Assembly (NCBI GenBank): GCA_902826885.1
Contig: CADEGL010000003.1
Location: 51,328 to 83,730, forward strand
Direction of reading: 5' to 3'
Source: an uncultured Alphaproteobacteria bacterium
GTDB taxonomy: Bacteria > Pseudomonadota > Alphaproteobacteria > CADEGL01
Length of the DNA stretch: 32,403 nt
Shown here: piece after piece, positions 2,670 through 17,655 of the stretch
Numbering within the stretch: the first letter of the stretch is position 1
Layout of the letters: each line of letters begins with the position of its first letter
The notes under the pieces: model-generated
What the model saw: the letters and a program-made list of their open reading frames with translations, nothing else
What the model was told of the DNA's origin: nothing
Databases searched by the model: none
Position numbers and translations under genes: made by a program

Positions 2670-3065
2670 ATGGCATCCGAGAAGTTCGAGCGCGGCCTCA
2701 AGATCCGCACCGAGGTCCTGGGCAAGGACTATGTCGAGAAGGCGACCAAGAACGTCGACGACTTCAACCGCGAGTTCCAGCAGATGGTCACGGAATATTG
2801 CTGGGGCGGTATCTGGGGCCGCGAGGGGATCATTTCGCACAAGCAGCGCAGCATGCTGAACCTGGCCATGCTGGCGGCGCTCAACCGGCCGCATGAGTTC
2901 GAGCTGCACATGCGCGGCGCGCTCAACAACAAGGTCTCGCTGGACGAGATCCGCGAGGTGCTGATGCAGGTGGCCGTCTATTGCGGCATCCCGGCGGGCG
3001 TCGAGGCGTTCCGCATCGCGCGCAAGGTGATCGCGGAGGAGAAGGCCGCCGGAGCCAAGCTCTGA
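2670..3065 (+). CDS. pcaC: 4-carboxymuconolactone decarboxylase family protein (PcaC-like)
   Basis: The 131-aa product aligns by eye along its whole length with PcaC, the decarboxylase of the protocatechuate branch of the beta-ketoadipate pathway. It shares the opening GLKIRTEVLG, the middle WGREGIISHKQRSMLNLAML and the late VAVYCGIPAGVEAF. The CxxC motif of the AhpD-like redox branch is absent, which favours the decarboxylase branch. A good ribosome site (gggagaggaaag) precedes the ATG. Its stop overlaps the next ATG by one base, so it is coupled to the dehydrogenase at 3065. No other protocatechuate gene is in view, so it may act on a related lactone or keto acid; the symbol reflects family similarity only. 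Confidence 0.85.
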   Translation: MASEKFERGLKIRTEVLGKDYVEKATKNVDDFNREFQQMVTEYCWGGIWGREGIISHKQRSMLNLAMLAALNRPHEFELHMRGALNNKVSLDEIREVLMQVAVYCGIPAGVEAFRIARKVIAEEKAAGAKL

Positions 3066-3931
3066 TGGAAACAATCGGCTTCGTTGGCCTGGGCGCGATG
3101 GGCAAGCCCATGGCCGGGCGGCTGGCCCAGGCGGGCCTGAAGCTGATTGTCCACGACAAGGCCGGCACGGCGGAGCGCGCGCCCGCCGGCGCCCGTGCCG
3201 CCGGCTCGGTCGGCGAAGTCGTGGCCGATGCCGAGACGCTATTTCTCAGCCTGCCCGACGGAAAGGTGGTGGAGGCTGTGGCGCGTGCGATCGCCGCGGC
3301 CAAGCCGCGAAAAACGAATCTGGTGGTGGATCTGTCCACCATCGGCCTCGAGGCCGCGGGCAAGACCGCCGCGATCTTCTCTGGCGCCGGGATCGCTTAT
3401 CTCGATGCGCCCGTCTCGGGCGGCGTCGCGGGTGCGTCCAAGGGCACGCTGGCCGTGATGGCGGCGGGCTCGAAAGCGGACTTCGCGCGCGTCGAGGCGC
3501 CGCTCAAGGCCATGGCCAAGAACCTGTTCCATGTCGGCGAGACGCCGGGGCAGGGCCAGGCCATGAAGCTGCTCAACAACTTCCTGTCCGCGACCGCCAT
3601 GGCGGCGACCAGCGAGGCCGTCATCTTCGGCGAATCGCAAGGCCTCGACATGGGCACGATCCTGTCGGTGCTGAATGTCTCCACGGGCCAGAACACGGCC
3701 AGCAGCGACAAGTTCGTGAACCGCATCCTGACCGGCACGTTCAACGCCGGCTTCACCGTGCATTTGATGGCGAAGGATGTCGGCCTCTACCGCAACGCGG
3801 TCGAAGGTGCCGGCACCGCGGCCAAGGTGGGCGAGCCTGTCTCGGCCGTGTGGCGGGAGCTGGACGACAAGATGGGCGCGGAGGACTTCACCCGCGTCTA
3901 CACCCATCTCGGCGGCAAGCGCGGCGCCTAG
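3065..3931 (+). CDS. NAD(P)-dependent beta-hydroxyacid dehydrogenase (3-hydroxyisobutyrate dehydrogenase family)
   Basis: The 288-aa protein begins METIGFVGLGAMGKPMA, a Rossmann glycine motif (G8-x-G10-x-x-G13). It has the family substrate loop LDAPVSGG (residues 113-120) and the catalytic lysine K168 in GQAMKLLNNF. The C-terminal helical domain is complete. This ATG was chosen over an upstream frame extension because it overlaps the preceding stop (TGATG) and starts exactly at the Rossmann strand. The family oxidises 3-hydroxyisobutyrate, tartronate semialdehyde, 6-phosphogluconate-like or related 2- and 3-hydroxyacids. Pairing with a PcaC-like decarboxylase suggests a small catabolic operon. 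Its stop overlaps the convergent M24 gene's stop by 4 bp. Confidence 0.9.
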   Translation: METIGFVGLGAMGKPMAGRLAQAGLKLIVHDKAGTAERAPAGARAAGSVGEVVADAETLFLSLPDGKVVEAVARAIAAAKPRKTNLVVDLSTIGLEAAGKTAAIFSGAGIAYLDAPVSGGVAGASKGTLAVMAAGSKADFARVEAPLKAMAKNLFHVGETPGQGQAMKLLNNFLSATAMAATSEAVIFGESQGLDMGTILSVLNVSTGQNTASSDKFVNRILTGTFNAGFTVHLMAKDVGLYRNAVEGAGTAAKVGEPVSAVWRELDDKMGAEDFTRVYTHLGGKRGA

Positions 3932-5088
3932 CCGTTGACCACGAGGTCGAGCGAGCTTTTGGACAAGGGCTCGGGTCCCTTGGCCGTGACGTGATAGGAC
4001 TGGCCGGGCGCTGTCGCCAGGCCGGTCTTTTCATCCACCAGAACGGTATGGATGAAGAACACGTTGCCCGGCTCGATCACCGCCGGATTGTTCCGGTACA
4101 GCATCGGCCAATCCATCCAGGTCGGCTGGAACACCGCGCCCATGCTGTAGCCCGTCGATGTCTGGCGCACGTGCCGGGATACGCCATGCTTGCCGCAGAC
4201 GCGGTCATAGGCGGCAAAGACATCGCCGCACGTGTTGCCGGGCTTGAGCGCCGCGGCACTGGCCAAATGCGCCTCGACCGCGATGTCGTGCATCTTGGCT
4301 TGGCGCGGCTTCAGCTTGCCGACCACGATCGTGCGCATCATCGCGGCGTGATAGCGCAAGTATGAGCCCGCCCATTCGATGGTCATCTGGTCGTTTTTCT
4401 TGAGCGTTTGCCGCCCCGAGATGTACCGGCCGAGCAGCGCGCGGCGTCCGGCGCCGATCACCTGGTCATTGGCCGGCCAGTCGGCGCCGCCCTTGAACAT
4501 CTCGCCCTGCACGGCGGCCAGAATGGTGCCTTCGTTCGCACCCGCCACGGTCAGCCGGTTGGCATGCCGCAGCGCCTTGTCGGCCAAGGAGGCGGCCGTC
4601 CGGATATATCCGATCTCGGCGCGGCTTTTGACGCAGCGCAAGCGCGTGACGAGGTCCGACGCATCTTCCAAGGCGCAGAAGCCCTTGAGCGCCGCGCTCA
4701 GCTTGCGGTGGATCGCGCCGGTCAGCCCGTAGGCGTCGTATTCGATGCCGATGCGCTTGCCTTTCACGCCGCGCGAGTCCAGGAGGCGCTTCAAGTCGAG
4801 CGACGGGTTCGCACCCGGCAGGTTGATCCAGGCGTGGATGTCTTTCCGCGCGAGGATCGAGATTTCGCGTGCAACGATGGCATCGGGTGGGCGCGTCACC
4901 AGGAAGATGCGGCCATCGGTGCCGAGATACATGGCCTGGAAGAAGCAATAGCCGAACGTCTCATGGCCGGTCAGGTAGTACATGCTCTCCTGACGAAACA
5001 TCAGGAGGCCTTTCAAGCCACGCCGCTCCAGCTCCTCGATCGTCTTCTTCTGACGGCTCTTGAACTCGGCGTTCGTGAAGTGGGCCAT
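3928..5088 (-). CDS. M24 pita-bread family hydrolase, ectoine hydrolase (DoeA)/creatinase-like, metal ligands lost
   Basis: This 386-aa protein has the creatinase N-terminal domain (about 1-150) and an M24 C-terminal domain. The N-terminal stretch YYLTGHETFGYCFFQAMYL and the later SDLVTRLRCVKSRAEIGYIR resemble ectoine hydrolase DoeA as I remember that family. The five metal ligands of aminopeptidases (D, D, H, E, E) appear replaced: TIEWAGSYLRYHAAMMRT has E and A for the two Asp, STGYSMG stands where GHGIG is usual, FFIHTVLV has H for E, and GQSYHV lacks the last E. Creatinase and DoeA-type enzymes are metal-free amidinohydrolases/amidohydrolases, so a C-N bond of a small zwitterion is the likely target. 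A strong GGGGAGGA site precedes the ATG. No doeB partner is seen. Confidence 0.88.
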   Translation of the reverse strand: MAHFTNAEFKSRQKKTIEELERRGLKGLLMFRQESMYYLTGHETFGYCFFQAMYLGTDGRIFLVTRPPDAIVAREISILARKDIHAWINLPGANPSLDLKRLLDSRGVKGKRIGIEYDAYGLTGAIHRKLSAALKGFCALEDASDLVTRLRCVKSRAEIGYIRTAASLADKALRHANRLTVAGANEGTILAAVQGEMFKGGADWPANDQVIGAGRRALLGRYISGRQTLKKNDQMTIEWAGSYLRYHAAMMRTIVVGKLKPRQAKMHDIAVEAHLASAAALKPGNTCGDVFAAYDRVCGKHGVSRHVRQTSTGYSMGAVFQPTWMDWPMLYRNNPAVIEPGNVFFIHTVLVDEKTGLATAPGQSYHVTAKGPEPLSKSSLDLVVNG

Positions 5089-5170
5089 TGTCGTCCTCCC
5101 CTTGTGTTCTTTACGCGAGCTTAGGTTGCCGCGCGCGTTCGTCTCGTTGCCATCTCGCGCAACCAGTCAT

Positions 5171-5198
5171 GCCAATTTGCTATGGCCAAATTTCTATG
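5171..5198. repeat. Tandem 14-bp repeat in the upstream region of the M24 gene (possible operator)
   Basis: Two abutting 14-bp units, GCCAATTTGCTATG and GCCAAATTTCTATG, agree at 12 of 14 positions. They lie 83-110 bp upstream of the M24 start in an A/T-rich island within a G/C-rich region. An overlapping inverted pair, AATTTG and CAAATT with a 7-bp spacer, is also present. Tandem copies one and a third helical turns apart fit binding of a regulator, but no regulator gene lies beside it. The role is inferred only from position and repetition. Confidence 0.35.
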
Positions 5199-5226
5199 GG
5201 TGTTCCGGCGGTCGGACGGCGCGCGG

Positions 5227-5727
5227 CTAGTGTACTTCGGGCGACAGCTTGCCGTAGGCGCCGCGGAAATAGAGCAGGGGCTTTTTCGACGGGTCCGTGG
5301 CCATATGAATCACCTCGCCGACGAAGATGACATGGTCGCCGCCATCGTAGCGTTCGCGCGTATGGCACTCGAAGCTGGCCAGGGCGCCGATCAGGATCGG
5401 GCAGCCTGTCTCCCACGTCGTGTAGGCGATGTTGTTCCATTTGTCCGGATGGGGCCGCGCGAAGTTGCCCGACAGCGCGCGCTGCTCGTCCGACAGGACG
5501 TTAACCGCGAAATTTTGACTTTCGAAGAAGGCGCCCAGGCTGTTCGCGCGCTTATCCAGGCTGAACAGGACCAGCGGCGGTTCGAGCGAGACGGAGTTGA
5601 AGGAGTTGGCCGTGAAGCCAAGCAACACGCCGTCCGGCCCACAGCCGGTGATGACGGTGACGCCGGTTGCGAAACAACCAAGAGCGTTGCGCAGGCTGCG
5701 CTGATCGACGGGTTTTATTTTTTCCAC
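5227..5727 (-). CDS. Flavin reductase family protein (FMN-binding split barrel)
   Basis: The 166-aa product is a short-chain flavin reductase that makes free FMNH2 or FADH2 for a partner monooxygenase. Family motifs are FATGVTVITG near residue 19-28, GFTANSFNSVSLEPPLVLFS near 36-55, and a late FVGEVIHM. I chose the GTG start (VEKIKPVDQRSL) because AGAGG lies 6 nt upstream and the protein then starts right before the family's first conserved helix; the open frame further upstream lacks homology-like sequence. It ends with YFRGAYGKLSPEVH, as is common for this group. The luciferase-like monooxygenase at 758-1777 could be its client, though the genes are not adjacent. Confidence 0.87.
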   Translation of the reverse strand: MEKIKPVDQRSLRNALGCFATGVTVITGCGPDGVLLGFTANSFNSVSLEPPLVLFSLDKRANSLGAFFESQNFAVNVLSDEQRALSGNFARPHPDKWNNIAYTTWETGCPILIGALASFECHTRERYDGGDHVIFVGEVIHMATDPSKKPLLYFRGAYGKLSPEVH

Positions 5728-11929: not shown

Positions 11930-12937
11930 TCAGCGGCGCTCGGCGCCGACCTTTTCCGCGCCATGCCAGCCCTCGTCGGGCCCGTCATCGACGCCATAGG
12001 TCGCGCGCACGATGAAGAGCGGACGCCCCTTCACCTCGCTGAAGATGCGGCCGATGTAATCGCCCAGGATACCGAGGGTGAGGAGCTGGATGCCGCCCAG
12101 GAACAGCACGATCATGATGATCGATTCGTAACCGGGCACGTCCACGCCGTGCAGCGCCGTGCGGATCAGGCGGAACAGGATGTAGAGGAAGGCGAAGCCG
12201 GAAATCGTGGCGCCCACGATCGTCCAAACGCGCAAGGGGAAGTTGGAGAAAGCTGTCAGCCCATCGACCCCTAGGCGCAGAAGACCGCGCAGGCCCCATT
12301 TTGTCTCGCCTTCGCGCCGCTCCTCCTCGCGATAGGAAATGCCGCCTTGGCGGAAGCCGACCCAACTGTAGATGCCCTTCATGAACCGGGTGCGTTCGGG
12401 CATGCGGTTAATCACCGTAACCACCCGGTGGTCCAACAGGCGGAAATCGCCGGTCCCATGGGGGACCGGGACTTCGGACAGCCGATCGAACAAGGCGTAA
12501 AAAACCCGGCGCAAGATACGGGTCATCAGTGTCTGGTCCGTGCGCTCCTCGCGCACGGCATAGACGACCTCATAACCTTCACGCCATTTCTCGATCATGC
12601 CCGCGATGCGCTCGGGCGGGTGTTGCAGGTCGGCGTCGATAATCACCACGGCATCGCCCGTGGCATGGGACAGGCCGGCGCTGAGCGCGCGCTCCTTGCC
12701 GAAATTGCGTGACAGATCCACCACCTTGATCGCGGGGTGGCGCGCGCGCGCGGCCAACAGGCGATCAAGCGTGTCGTCCGAACTGCCGTCGTTCACGCAA
12801 ACGACATCCCAGGCCAGCCCCAGCCCGTTCAGCACGGGCACCAGGCGTGCGAAGAACGACTGGACGTTGGCGCCCTCGTTGAAGAAAGGCACCACGATGG
12901 TCAAGCGCGATGGCGAGGTGGCGGACGCTGGCGTCAT
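11930..12937 (-). CDS. GT2 polyprenyl-phosphate glycosyltransferase (DPM1/ArnC/FlmF-like)
   Basis: The 335-aa protein has a GT-A domain opening with TIVVPFFNEGANVQSF, the nucleotide-sugar loop VCVNDGSSDDT, LSRNFGKERALSAG and the metal-binding D101-A-D103 in IIDADLQHP. Two C-terminal membrane helices (about 233-257 and 267-291) anchor it, as in ArnC, GtrB and FlmF. It should transfer a sugar from a UDP or GDP donor to a polyprenyl phosphate on the cytoplasmic face. It is followed after 14 bp by the GT-C gene and diverges from the deacetylase gene with a 132-bp gap. The sugar is likely an N-acetylhexosamine if the three genes act together, which is inference. Confidence 0.92.
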   Translation of the reverse strand: MTPASATSPSRLTIVVPFFNEGANVQSFFARLVPVLNGLGLAWDVVCVNDGSSDDTLDRLLAARARHPAIKVVDLSRNFGKERALSAGLSHATGDAVVIIDADLQHPPERIAGMIEKWREGYEVVYAVREERTDQTLMTRILRRVFYALFDRLSEVPVPHGTGDFRLLDHRVVTVINRMPERTRFMKGIYSWVGFRQGGISYREEERREGETKWGLRGLLRLGVDGLTAFSNFPLRVWTIVGATISGFAFLYILFRLIRTALHGVDVPGYESIIMIVLFLGGIQLLTLGILGDYIGRIFSEVKGRPLFIVRATYGVDDGPDEGWHGAEKVGAERR

Positions 12938-13069: not shown

Positions 13070-13933
13070 GTGAGCGCGCAGGCGCCGTCCGCGCCGGCGG
13101 GCGGTATTCCTATCATTCTTTGCGCCGACGATTACGGCATCGCCCCCGGTGTCAGCCGCGCGATCCGCGACCTGATCGCTCGGCGGATTCTGACGGCGAC
13201 CGGTTGTATGACCGCCGGGTCCTGGTGGCCGGAGGAGGGGGCGGCCCTGCGTCCCTTGGCGAGTCTGGCCGATTGTGGGCTCCATATCACTCTCACGGAT
13301 CAGCCGCCGCTGGGCGCCATGCCGCGCACCGCGCCTGCGGGACTGTTGCCGAGCCTGGGGCGGCTGACGGCAGCGGCTTATACAGGGCGCCTCGATCGCG
13401 GCGAGATTGCGGCCGAGATCGACCGCCAGATCGCCCGCTTTTCGGCCGTCATGGGGGCACCGCCCGCCTTTCTCGACGGGCATCAGCATGTCCATCAACT
13501 GCCCGTGGTGCGCGATCTGGTGATCGCGCGCGCGAGACAGACAGGCGCGTCTCTTCGCTATGCCACCGAACCTTTGTCCGCGATCCTTCGGCGCGGCGTG
13601 GCCGTCGCGCGCGCGGCGGCGATCAGCCTGATGGGCATGGGGCTGCGGCGGCACGGGCAGGCGGCGGGCGTGGCCGGGAACAGCGTCTTCCGCGGCGTAC
13701 GGGACTTTTCGCCCGGGGAATCTTATCCGCTCCTGTTTCCCCGCTACCTTGAGCGGCCGGTCCCAGGCATGATGATCGCGTGCCATCCGGGGCTGGTCGA
13801 CGATGCGCTGCGCGCGGTCGATCCGGTCACGGTGCCGCGCGAGGGGGAGTATCGATATTTCATGGACGACGCGTTCGCACGCGATCTCGCGGCGGCGGGC
13901 GTTCGTCTGGTCCGGGGAAGCGAAGGCAGGTAG
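13070..13933 (+). CDS. YdjC/ChbG/HpnK-family carbohydrate deacetylase (NaxD-like)
   Basis: The 287-aa enzyme carries the family's metal site: D20-D21 in LCADDYGI, H72 in CGLHITL and the cluster DGHQHVH with H138, H140 and H142. Such enzymes remove an N-acetyl group from a sugar. Members include ChbG (chitobiose), HpnK (hopanoid glucosamine) and Francisella NaxD, which deacetylates undecaprenyl-phosphate N-acetylgalactosamine before transfer to lipid A. The start is a GTG after GGGCCCAG; no better start is seen. Divergent neighbours are a polyprenyl-phosphate GT2 and a GT-C enzyme, which argues for the NaxD-type role. No hopanoid gene is in view. The antiporter gene starts 5 bp after its stop, so both are likely on one mRNA. 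Confidence 0.88.
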   Translation: MSAQAPSAPAGGIPIILCADDYGIAPGVSRAIRDLIARRILTATGCMTAGSWWPEEGAALRPLASLADCGLHITLTDQPPLGAMPRTAPAGLLPSLGRLTAAAYTGRLDRGEIAAEIDRQIARFSAVMGAPPAFLDGHQHVHQLPVVRDLVIARARQTGASLRYATEPLSAILRRGVAVARAAAISLMGMGLRRHGQAAGVAGNSVFRGVRDFSPGESYPLLFPRYLERPVPGMMIACHPGLVDDALRAVDPVTVPREGEYRYFMDDAFARDLAAAGVRLVRGSEGR

Positions 13934-13938
13934 GGGTC

Positions 13939-16401
13939 ATGGAACAGATCGCCATCACCATCATCGCCATCATGGTCTTGTTGGCGACCGCCAGCATGCT
14001 GGTGCCGGTGGCCGACCGGCTGCGCGTGCCGCACGCCGTGCTTCTGGCCGCGCTGGGGATGGCGGTCGGCATTGTGACCATCATCGTCGGTTCGGGCTCG
14101 GGCACGGACCAGGTGGATGACGCGCTACGCACCTACGACCGCTTCCATCTGGACGCGGAGGTCTTGCTTTACGTTTTCCTGCCGGCGCTCTTGTTCACCG
14201 CCGGCCTGACCGTCGACGTCCGGCGCATGCTGGACGAGGTCTGGGCGGTCTTGCTCTTGGCCGTCGTCGCCGTGCTCGTCTGCGCGGGTCTGGTCGGCTT
14301 TGCCTTGCACCAGGTGTCGGGCGTCGATCTGGCGACCTGTGTGCTGTTGGGCGCCGTGATCGCGACCACCGATCCCGCCGCCGTCATCGCCGTGTTCCGC
14401 GAATTGGGCGCGCCCCGGCGGCTGACCATCCTGGTTCAGGGCGAAAGCCTGCTGAACGACGCGGCCGCCATCGCCATCTTCGCCATCGTGGTCGGCATCC
14501 TGAGCGGGCAGCAGGAGGTCGGTGGCGGCATGGCCACCTTCAAGTTCCTGGAAGATTTCATCGGCGGCGCCATCCTCGGCTACCTCTTCGCCCGCGTCGC
14601 CTTTTGGCTCATCAAGCGGCTCGACGGCGAACTGGGCGCCGAGATCACCATCACCATCGCGCTGGCGTACCTTTCCTTCATCTTGGGCGAGCGCTATTTC
14701 CACGTTTCGGGCGTGGTTGCCGTCGCGGTCGCCTCGCTGACGGTCGCCGCCTACGGCCCCGTGCGCCTGTCGCCCGGCAATTGGAAGACGCTGAGGGAAG
14801 TCTGGCACCATCTGGAGTTTTGGGCGGCGTCGCTCATCTTCCTTCTGGCCGCGATCGCCGCGGGCCATGAATTGTCGAATCTGCAATGGAGCGATCTGGG
14901 GCTGATCGGCGTTTTGATCGCAGGCGCGATCACCGCGCGCGCCATCGTGCTTTACGGGCTCTTGCCCGGGCTGGCGATGCTGGGCCTCGTGGAGCCGGTG
15001 GACGGCCGCTATAAGGCGGTCATCCTGTGGGGCGGCTTGCGTGGCGCGGTCACCATGGCACTGGCCTTGGCCGTCGCGGAAAACCAGGCCTTGCCGGAAG
15101 AGACGCGGCGCTTCGTGGCCATTCTGGCCATCGGCTTCGTCCTGTTCACCCTGTTCGTCAGCGCGCCGACCTTGCGGCCGCTTCTGCGCCTTCTGGGCCT
15201 GGACAAGCTGGACCCCGTGGAGGCCGCGCTGCGCGAGCGCGTCGTGGCCATGTCCCACTCCAGCCTGCGCGAACAGATCGCGGAGTTCGCCAAAAGCAGC
15301 GGGATGGACGAAAAAACGGCCCAGCAATTCGACCTGGCCAAGCCGGAGGACGAGCAGGACGTCCAGTTATCCAAGGCGCAGCGGATGCAGGTGGGCTTGC
15401 TGACCTTGGCCTCGCGCGAGAAGAGCCTTTATATCGAGCGCGCGATGGAGCGCGCGGCGTCGCGCCGGCTGGTGGCCATCCTGGTCAGCGCGGCCGATCG
15501 TATGAGCGACCGAATCAAGAGCGCCGGCGTCGAGGGGTACAAGAAGGCCGCCAACGATCTGATCGCCTTTCCGCGGCCGTTCCGAATCGCCCATTGGCTG
15601 CACCGCCGCTTCGGCTGGAGCCAGTCGTTGAGCCAACAGCTGGCCGATCGCGTCGAGATGCTTCTGATGGCCCAACTCGCGGTGCGCGAACTGATGGCGT
15701 TCAACCGGGCCGATATGCGTGCGTTGCTGGGTCAAGGCACGAGCGACCGCTTGGCGGCCATTCTGGAAGAGCGCGCGGAAAGCGTGCGCGACGCGCTGTC
15801 GGCGATCACGCTGCAGTACCCCACCTTTGCGACCGCTCTGCGCGAACAGTATCTCGCGCGTACCGTGCTGCGGCTGGAAGCGGCGGACTACGAGCGCATG
15901 TTCCAGGACGCGTTGATCAGCCGCGAGGTCTATCGCGATCTGCAACACGAGCTGTCGCACCGCCGCGAGGGGCTGGAACAGCGGCCGGTCTTGGATTTGG
16001 GCCTCAAGCTGCAAGCCATGATGCGCAGCCTGCCCATGTTCGCCGACCTGCCGGCCGACAGCGTCGAGAAGATCGGCCGCTTGCTACGGCCCCGCCTGGC
16101 GATTCCGGGCGAGCATGTCATCCGCAAGGGCGACAAGGGCGACGCCATGTACTTCATCGCGAGCGGCGAGGTCGAAGTGCGGGTTCCGTCGGGCCCGATC
16201 CGGCTCAAGGACGCGGATTTCTTCGGCGAGCTGGCGCTGCTGCGCAACGCGCCGCGCAGCGCCGACGTGGTGGCGTCCGGCTTCTGTCAGCTTCTGGCGC
16301 TGTATCGCGGCGACTTCCACCGCTTCCTGCGTGCGAACCCGACGCTCAAGGAACAGATCGAGCGCGCCGCCGAGGCGCGCATGTCGAACGCGCCGGCCTA
16401 A
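13939..16401 (+). CDS. CPA1 Na+(K+)/H+ antiporter with C-terminal cyclic nucleotide-binding domain
   Basis: The 820-aa protein has an NhaP/NHE-type transport domain (about 1-430) with a dozen membrane segments and the motifs ATTDPAAV (D145), GESLLNDAA (N173-D174) and GGLRGAVTMALAL (R368). A long helical cytoplasmic linker (about 430-690) has the segment LREQYLARTVLRLEAADYE. A cyclic nucleotide-binding domain occupies about 695-815: RKGDKGDAMYFIASGEVEV and FFGELALLRNAPRSADV, the second holding the phosphate-binding E and R. This layout recalls plant SOS1 and animal sperm NHE. It should exchange Na+ or K+ for protons under control of cAMP or a related ligand. The ATG follows a TAGGGG site and lies 5 bp after the deacetylase gene. 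Confidence 0.93.
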   Translation: MEQIAITIIAIMVLLATASMLVPVADRLRVPHAVLLAALGMAVGIVTIIVGSGSGTDQVDDALRTYDRFHLDAEVLLYVFLPALLFTAGLTVDVRRMLDEVWAVLLLAVVAVLVCAGLVGFALHQVSGVDLATCVLLGAVIATTDPAAVIAVFRELGAPRRLTILVQGESLLNDAAAIAIFAIVVGILSGQQEVGGGMATFKFLEDFIGGAILGYLFARVAFWLIKRLDGELGAEITITIALAYLSFILGERYFHVSGVVAVAVASLTVAAYGPVRLSPGNWKTLREVWHHLEFWAASLIFLLAAIAAGHELSNLQWSDLGLIGVLIAGAITARAIVLYGLLPGLAMLGLVEPVDGRYKAVILWGGLRGAVTMALALAVAENQALPEETRRFVAILAIGFVLFTLFVSAPTLRPLLRLLGLDKLDPVEAALRERVVAMSHSSLREQIAEFAKSSGMDEKTAQQFDLAKPEDEQDVQLSKAQRMQVGLLTLASREKSLYIERAMERAASRRLVAILVSAADRMSDRIKSAGVEGYKKAANDLIAFPRPFRIAHWLHRRFGWSQSLSQQLADRVEMLLMAQLAVRELMAFNRADMRALLGQGTSDRLAAILEERAESVRDALSAITLQYPTFATALREQYLARTVLRLEAADYERMFQDALISREVYRDLQHELSHRREGLEQRPVLDLGLKLQAMMRSLPMFADLPADSVEKIGRLLRPRLAIPGEHVIRKGDKGDAMYFIASGEVEVRVPSGPIRLKDADFFGELALLRNAPRSADVVASGFCQLLALYRGDFHRFLRANPTLKEQIERAAEARMSNAPA

Positions 16402-16845: not shown

Positions 16846-17655
16846 TCAGGGCCGCGGATCGCCGGGGGCCAGAATCTCGCGCAGATGCGGAACCGATTGC
16901 GGGCGCTCGCGCGGCAGGCACAGCATGTTCACCGCCCGCATCGACGCGAAGATATCGGCCCTGGCGTCCAGGAAATTCCGTCGCGAGAAGAGGGGCGGCG
17001 CGTGCCAATAGGCGCGATAGTCGAGTGCCAGGATCTGGCCGATCAGTCTCGCCGAATGCTCCGCCATGGCGTTGCCGACATAGAGGGTCGGCCGGCTGCG
17101 GCGGATCGTCTCCGCGGCCCCTGCCAGCACCTCGCCCTCGGTCGCCAGCACATCGACCTTGATCAAGTGGCAGGCCGGCAGGTCCAGCGAGTCGACGGTC
17201 ACGAGCGGGACTGGCTCGCCCGAGGTCCATTTTCCCAGGATCAGCGAGCCGAAATCGCCGTCGCGGCCATAGTCGATGCGCGGCACCAGCGTTTCGCCGT
17301 CCGTCGAGCCCGCCGCGGCCAGGTAGGCGTGGATGTTGGGCAGGCGGTTCAGGGCCGCGTTGCCGCACAGCATCTGGAACAGGGCGCGCTGGGGCTCGAT
17401 GGCAATGACGGACCCGGTCATCCCCACCATGCGCGCGAGTGCGATCGTGTGGCTGCCGACATGGGCGCCGACATCCACGGCCACCTGGCCGGGCTGGATG
17501 GCCGCCCGGAAGACACCGACCTCGTCCTCCATATATTCGCCATAGACGTCCAACGAGCGGCCGACGATCCGGTCGGTGCTGAAATACAGCATGGGGCCGT
17601 GACGGCAGCGCCGCAGCCGGACCGGCCCGCTCTCCAGTAGGACTTCTCCGGCCAT
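16846..17655 (-). CDS. FkbM-family SAM-dependent methyltransferase
   Basis: The 269-aa protein has the FkbM Rossmann fold: the SAM loop VAVDVGAHVGSHTIALAR with D61, the acidic strand-2 end IAIEPQ, and the family hallmark LIKVDVLATEGEVLAGA, a variant of the usual KxDVEGxExxVLxGA in which the EG-E pattern is slightly altered. FkbM members O-methylate sugars, often on cell-surface glycans or secondary metabolites. No glycosyltransferase is next to it, but the neighbourhood within 10 kb is rich in envelope genes. The ATG has no strong ribosome site. The acetoacetate decarboxylase gene is 82 bp upstream on the same strand. Confidence 0.87.
   Translation of the reverse strand: MAGEVLLESGPVRLRRCRHGPMLYFSTDRIVGRSLDVYGEYMEDEVGVFRAAIQPGQVAVDVGAHVGSHTIALARMVGMTGSVIAIEPQRALFQMLCGNAALNRLPNIHAYLAAAGSTDGETLVPRIDYGRDGDFGSLILGKWTSGEPVPLVTVDSLDLPACHLIKVDVLATEGEVLAGAAETIRRSRPTLYVGNAMAEHSARLIGQILALDYRAYWHAPPLFSRRNFLDARADIFASMRAVNMLCLPRERPQSVPHLREILAPGDPRP

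Follow-up and report, generated by a model that had tools for sequence, protein, structure and literature searches.

The locus discussed here raises the question of whether a bacterial protein, in which an antiporter domain is followed by a long helical region and a cyclic-nucleotide-binding domain (CNBD), belongs with SOS1, which serves salt tolerance in plants, and with SLC9C1, an exchanger of animal sperm, and whether its transport could be controlled by a nucleotide. The gene lies in a window of 32,403 nucleotides from an uncultured alphaproteobacterium, whose genome comprises 3.87 Mb in 134 contigs. Its reading frame opens with ATG, ends with a stop codon and encodes a protein of 820 residues, P0001 (Table 1). 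The start is supported by Met at the equivalent aligned residue in most relatives, and the stop of the preceding YdjC-like gene sits 5 bases before it. Translation and Pfam searches bear out the coordinates, motif and domain order given in an earlier note on this DNA.

Table 1. Features of the antiporter gene and its neighbours (positions in the window; residues of P0001)
Feature	Position	Strand	Basis
Family 2 glycosyltransferase (GT2)	11930-12937	-	
YdjC-like deacetylase	13070-13933	+	
CPA1 antiporter / alpha-CTD / CNBD protein (P0001), 820 aa	13939-16401	+	Translation, Pfam, end-to-end relatives
Na_H_Exchanger transport domain, residues 19-417	13993-15189	+	PF00999, E 4.8e-50; six residues invariant in 62/62 rows
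ESLLND (169-174), CPA1-type E-x-x-x-N-D ion-binding motif	14443-14460	+	Sequence; E169, N173, D174 in 62/62 rows
Helical cytoplasmic domain, residues 438-690, with supported homology to SOS1 alpha-CTD	15250-16008	+	Linker profile against PDB, shuffles, Foldseek
Cyclic-nucleotide-binding domain, Pfam span 723-800	16105-16338	+	PF00027, E 4e-18
Phosphate-binding cassette GELALLRNAPRSADV (763-777)	16225-16269	+	E764 (16228-16230) and R773 (16255-16257), both in 48/62 rows
FkbM methyltransferase	16846-17655	-	

PF00999 and PF00027 are the sole Pfam matches in P0001. The former scores 170.9 bits against a curated cut-off of 26.2, which assigns the transport domain to the CPA1 (NhaP/NHE) type and agrees with the full NhaP-type transporter claimed earlier; the NCBIfam CPA1 equivalogs stay below their cut-offs (TIGR00831, a_cpa1, 194.1 against 279.6; TIGR00840, b_cpa1, 139.7 against 251.25). 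Both the E-x-x-x-N-D motif, whose meaning for CPA1 ion binding is treated in the available part of PMC9408914, and the conserved Arg are present. The region between the two domains (about 431-690) comprises about 260 residues and is mostly helical in a partial AlphaFold2 model, as the earlier note had proposed, and the CNBD that it described as intact contains both E764 and R773. The C-terminus lies 20 residues past the Pfam match of this domain. The expected lack of a voltage sensor is likewise borne out, since Pfam gives no Ion_trans match in P0001 and residues 438-690 align continuously to the SOS1 alpha-CTD. The domain order was said to be shared with both SOS1 and SLC9C1; this stands for SOS1 and holds only in part for SLC9C1, whose voltage sensor appears to lie within that helical domain.

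Of 60 relatives, 12 (the window's own genome counted) retain the three-part layout over its whole length, and end-to-end relatives occur in 65 of the 385 genomes in the class sample (E <= 1e-80; a few rows are partial owing to contig ends or broken frames), so the layout is not due to chance. In the phylum sample, relatives were found in 34 of 398 genomes (E <= 1e-60; a few rows partial), including one family outside the class with ~30% identity across most of the length; the nearest sampled relative is 92% identical to P0001. The alignment used below has 62 rows. It excludes the window itself (L005 and L008), a broken frame (L049), two partial sequences (L063 and L064) and a match to the CNBD only (L004). 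Two pairs of rows (L009/L020 and L010/L021) are apparently the same genes from two collections, so that the rows represent ~60 distinct genes. T144, D145, E169, N173, D174 and R334 are identical in all rows, and R368 is found in 56, being replaced by K in the remaining six-row group. The bacterial antiporter/alpha-CTD/CNBD proteins are thus a real, conserved family. Within the alpha-CTD, E494 (window positions 15418-15420) is retained in 60 of 62 rows; the same position is also E in the SLC9C1 profile alignment and is not E in that of OsSOS1. This residue may be one at which the alpha-CTD touches the transport domain.

Relatives are also carried by plasmids. In PLSDB, 77 of 111 matching records span 80% or more of the query, each at <60% identity, and the matches include Azospirillum, Rhizobium and Roseomonas; among the 25 matches listed, the named ones are called 'cation:proton antiporter'. 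The conjugative plasmid pDSHI01 of Dinoroseobacter shibae (190 kb; L117) carries a relative at positions 3001-5466 with a degenerate cassette (FGQ...), which resembles those of rows L052-L054 and L057 and is missing from the gene list of the plasmid table. The single-sequence search of viral contigs gave no relatives, and the alignment search gave only six distant antiporter pieces. Verrucomicrobiota were also considered as carriers of the full layout and rejected: the alpha-CTD profile matches a single one of 145 genomes, in a protein that lacks a CNBD. Two proteins, L115 (704-aa frame, minus strand; Verrucomicrobiota sample) and L063 (1101-aa frame, plus strand), combine a transport domain and an alpha-CTD and have no CNBD. 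In the L063 frame, about 340 residues precede the transport domain, perhaps as a spurious extension.

The nature of the helical region could be assessed by sequence and by fold. The best PDB match of P0001 in a single-sequence phmmer search is AtSOS1 (E 1e-46), with residues 12-745 aligned to 43-786 of AtSOS1, that is, through the linker; SLC9C1 follows at about 1e-45, against 3e-25 for NHE1. A profile built from the linkers of 52 bacterial proteins gives OsSOS1 as the top match (E 1.2e-4) of 177,635 distinct PDB sequences, with a weak match to AtSOS1 (E 1.3) and none of significance to SLC9C1 (E 0.19-0.26). The linker profile aligns with SLC9C1 (8xq8) in two stretches, 550-593 and 839-916, which come in the right order and are weak, the second very weak by itself. 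The 62-row linker profile gives 28.0 bits for OsSOS1 and 15.6 bits for AtSOS1, the best of 2000 shuffles reaching 6.2. When rows of the alpha class only are used, OsSOS1 (21.9) remains above the best shuffle (7.5), and AtSOS1 (5.6) falls below it.

An AlphaFold2 model of residues 425-705, obtained from a shallow alignment of 4 sequences, has a mean pLDDT of 59 and is confident only at about 564-684; the corresponding full-protein model (4 sequences, mean pLDDT 43) was poor and no use was made of it. In a Foldseek search with the 425-705 model, PDB rows 1-16 are all SLC9C1 or SOS1, none at E <= 0.001. VIA-align gives Z 8.7 and an rmsd of 3.0 over 122 residues for SLC9C1 and Z 7.6 for AtSOS1, values which the tool's own note regards as weak for helical bundles (Z <13). 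In this alignment the C-terminal half of the model matches SLC9C1 828-949, and the N-terminal part is matched from 486 (several rows, large rmsd). Since the alpha-CTD of OsSOS1 ranks first in the PDB and SLC9C1 and SOS1 lead the Foldseek ranking, the helical region is more than a spacer. The view of the linker as an arbitrary coiled coil is contradicted by the profile, shuffle and Foldseek results. Homology of the P0001 linker to the SOS1 alpha-CTD is supported by these profile and model comparisons. The voltage sensor of SLC9C1 would then lie inside a helical domain which is continuous in bacteria and plants, and the individual matches, each of them weak, agree with this.

A maximum-likelihood tree was calculated for 48 transport domains, including 30 bacterial CNBD proteins chosen from the 62 rows, 14 CNBD-less bacterial CPA1 proteins and, as eukaryotes, AtSOS1, OsSOS1 and SpSLC9C1; mammalian NHEs and archaeal NhaPs were left out. 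The bacterial CNBD proteins group together (support 90) as the sister of SOS1 and SLC9C1 (100 for the eukaryotes) and are not placed inside the SOS1 clade. Support for the joint clade is moderate (89), and the CNBD-less proteins fall outside it. With L115 and L063 added, support drops to 78 for the bacterial group and to 81 for the joint clade. Both are found inside the bacterial group, L115 with the degenerate-cassette rows (96) and L063 weakly among them (65).

The cassette of P0001, FFGELALLRNAPRSADV, matches the letters quoted in the earlier note. In its core (GELALLRNAPR) it carries the ribose-binding Glu and the phosphate-binding Arg by which a functional CNBD is recognized, and an intact cassette of this kind is also the mark of an SLC9C1-type CNBD. 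The nearest solved CNBDs by sequence include those of PKA, PKG, MlotiK1 and SthK. Position 776 is D in P0001 and in 56% of rows and T in the aligned cassettes of PKA and PKG. The two key residues are found together in about 46 of 60 distinct genes; one or both are lost in 14 of 62 rows, which belong to four families and include no apparent duplicate. Nucleotide control is therefore not essential to the design, given these losses and the absence of the CNBD from L115 and L063.

Class III cyclases were counted in the window's genome, where 10 matches accompany 7 CNBDs, and in the 58 genomes from which the alignment was drawn. Of these 58, all 44 whose cassette is intact have at least one class III cyclase, vs 8 of 14 with a degenerate cassette (Fisher 7e-5, with relatedness and genome size ignored). 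In the class sample, the figures are 64 of 65 antiporter genomes vs 185 of 320 others (Fisher 1e-12, with the same two factors ignored), and the sole antiporter genome lacking a class III cyclase (G335) has a degenerate cassette. Against this trend, three degenerate-cassette genomes (G571, G418 and G391) have 6, 10 and 8 cyclases, so the cassette has not in every case decayed after loss of the cyclases. The CNBD of P0001 is probably able to bind nucleotide, and nucleotide gating is plausible in view of cassette conservation and co-occurrence with cyclases.

The gene neighbourhood was considered as a clue to function and set aside as weak evidence; no functional link is claimed. The order GT2, YdjC-like gene, antiporter, small ORF and FkbM gene is retained in only two of 21 loci (L020 and L021), most of which have only about 1.5 kb of flank, and it is absent from L022, where the flanks reach 5 kb. 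Other CNBD transporters are encoded elsewhere in the same genome. A Kef-like protein of 654 aa (contig C19; L090, 3980-5944, minus strand) carries PF00999 followed by PF00027 and has no long alpha-CTD. It shares about 45% identity with P0001 over the CNBD region, and a further PF00999 gene (413 aa) adjoins it. An Ion_trans channel of 383 aa with a CNBD is found on contig C54 (L091, 3056-4207, minus strand). Three different ion transporters of this genome thus carry CNBDs that are related and might all respond to a common signal.

By its sequence, P0001 joins a CPA1 domain that has the ion-binding residues to an alpha-CTD of SOS1 type and to a CNBD equipped with the residues for ribose and phosphate binding. 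It is fairly probable that the protein is a cAMP- or cGMP-modulated CPA1 cation/proton antiporter of a bacterial branch sister to SOS1 and SLC9C1. P0001 is predicted to exchange Na+ or K+ against H+ at the cytoplasmic membrane and could act as a homodimer. By analogy with SOS1, the alpha-CTD under the membrane would restrain the elevator domain so that activity is low. When cAMP (or cGMP) from the class III cyclases of the cell binds to the CNBD, it could shift the alpha-CTD and so raise transport, the sign of this effect being, like the ion, presumed. Such a design would amount to ligand gating realized with neither the voltage sensor of SLC9C1 nor the kinase control of SOS1.

Alternatively, the CNBD could be a structural or docking module which stabilizes the dimer and the alpha-CTD, while activity depends on pH, ions or a partner protein. 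SOS1 offers a precedent, since its own CNBD-like domain is considered incapable of nucleotide binding in the available text of PMC10372031, and both the 14 degenerate cassettes and the two relatives that keep the alpha-CTD without a CNBD are compatible with such a role. This explanation is nevertheless rather unlikely for P0001, which is among the 48 rows with both key residues; moreover, a purely structural domain would need no cyclase, yet all 44 intact-cassette genomes have one of class III. Gating by a ligand other than a cyclic mononucleotide, for example a small phosphate-bearing metabolite, could be suggested by D instead of the T of PKA and PKG at position 776. CNBD-fold proteins with other ligands exist. 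However, the ribose-binding E and phosphate-binding R are together a cyclic-nucleotide signature, and PKA, PKG, MlotiK1 and SthK are among the closest solved domains, which makes another ligand improbable.

The layout itself could have arisen by convergent shuffling, in which an ordinary NhaP was independently fused to a helical spacer and a CNBD and has no special kinship with SOS1 or SLC9C1. The same genome does fuse CNBDs to a Kef-like antiporter and an Ion_trans channel, the former with a CNBD close to that of P0001, and the joint clade is supported at only 81-89. SOS1 is also the first PDB match of an NhaP without a CNBD, scoring far less strongly (5e-25). Against these points stand the homology of the linker to the SOS1 alpha-CTD, by profile and fold ranking, and the position of the bacterial branch as sister of SOS1 and SLC9C1 in the tree; independent assembly is accordingly improbable. 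A wider history could tentatively be proposed, to which somewhat less than an even chance is given. Proteobacteria would have a large undescribed family of cyclic-nucleotide-gated cation/proton antiporters retaining the ancestral SOS1/SLC9C layout. In animals, a voltage sensor would have been inserted in the middle of the alpha-CTD to give SLC9C1; in plants, the CNBD would have lost its ligand and a kinase-controlled tail would have been acquired to give SOS1. Some bacterial branches would first have lost the ability to bind a ligand and later the whole CNBD, in part in lineages that no longer had cyclases.

Among known systems, plant SOS1 (NHX7; AtSOS1 7y3e/8jd9, OsSOS1 8iwo/8j2m) has the same succession of CPA1 domain, alpha-CTD and CNBD-fold domain as P0001, with partial support from fold comparison. 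The likeness to SOS1 pointed out earlier thus holds for the architecture and does not extend to the CNBD-like domain, which is inactive in SOS1 (R is replaced by Y820), or to the C-terminal parts: the available text of PMC10372031 describes a beta-CTD, an autoinhibitory tail and kinase control, whereas P0001 ends after an intact CNBD and has neither beta-CTD nor tail. SLC9C1 (sNHE; sea urchin 8pcz, 8otq, 8u6z, 8xpq) shares the CPA1 domain, two halves matching the helical domain and the CNBD, and its exchange is modulated by cAMP according to the consulted part of PMC6052114. Unlike P0001, which has no S1-S4 voltage sensor, it carries one between the two helical halves, as judged by weak sequence and model matches, and it has a second beta-roll after the CNBD (excerpts of PMC10602139). 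Bacterial NhaP/NHE-type CPA1 proteins without a CNBD have only the transport domain in common with P0001 and lack the alpha-CTD as well; the 14 sampled lie outside the clade. With the bacterial CNG K+ channels MlotiK1 and SthK it is the CNBD that is common (E 1e-15 to 1e-17), joined in their case to a channel and not to an antiporter.

No description of the bacterial protein was found in the open-licence PMC literature. A 2020 review (PMC7573149) states, in the part available, that the pair of exchanger and CNBD is 'not present in bacteria' and has its origin in algae; the absence so stated is contradicted by the bacterial relatives found here. In the accessible portions of the other sources, the cytoplasmic arrangement of SLC9C1 is said to resemble that of SOS1 (PMC10602139, a preprint), SOS1 is treated as an sNHE homologue without a voltage sensor (PMC6660944), and SOS1-like proteins with a CNBD are reported from a halophilic protist (PMC5447177). 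The family is open to testing, since relatives with the intact cassette are found in cultured bacteria, among them Azospirillum brasilense and A. lipoferum; the protein of A. lipoferum carries only the annotation 'cation:proton antiporter'. The bacterial branch provides an outgroup for timing the voltage-sensor insertion and the loss of the ligand in SOS1. SOS1 and SLC9C1, both from eukaryotes, are large and regulated at several levels; P0001 consists only of transporter, alpha-CTD and CNBD in 820 residues and could be a simple test case that isolates how a soluble sensor gates an elevator-type exchanger. As judged from its cassette and domain composition, the bacterial protein is a voltage-sensor-free and probably ligand-competent variant of the SOS1/SLC9C kind.
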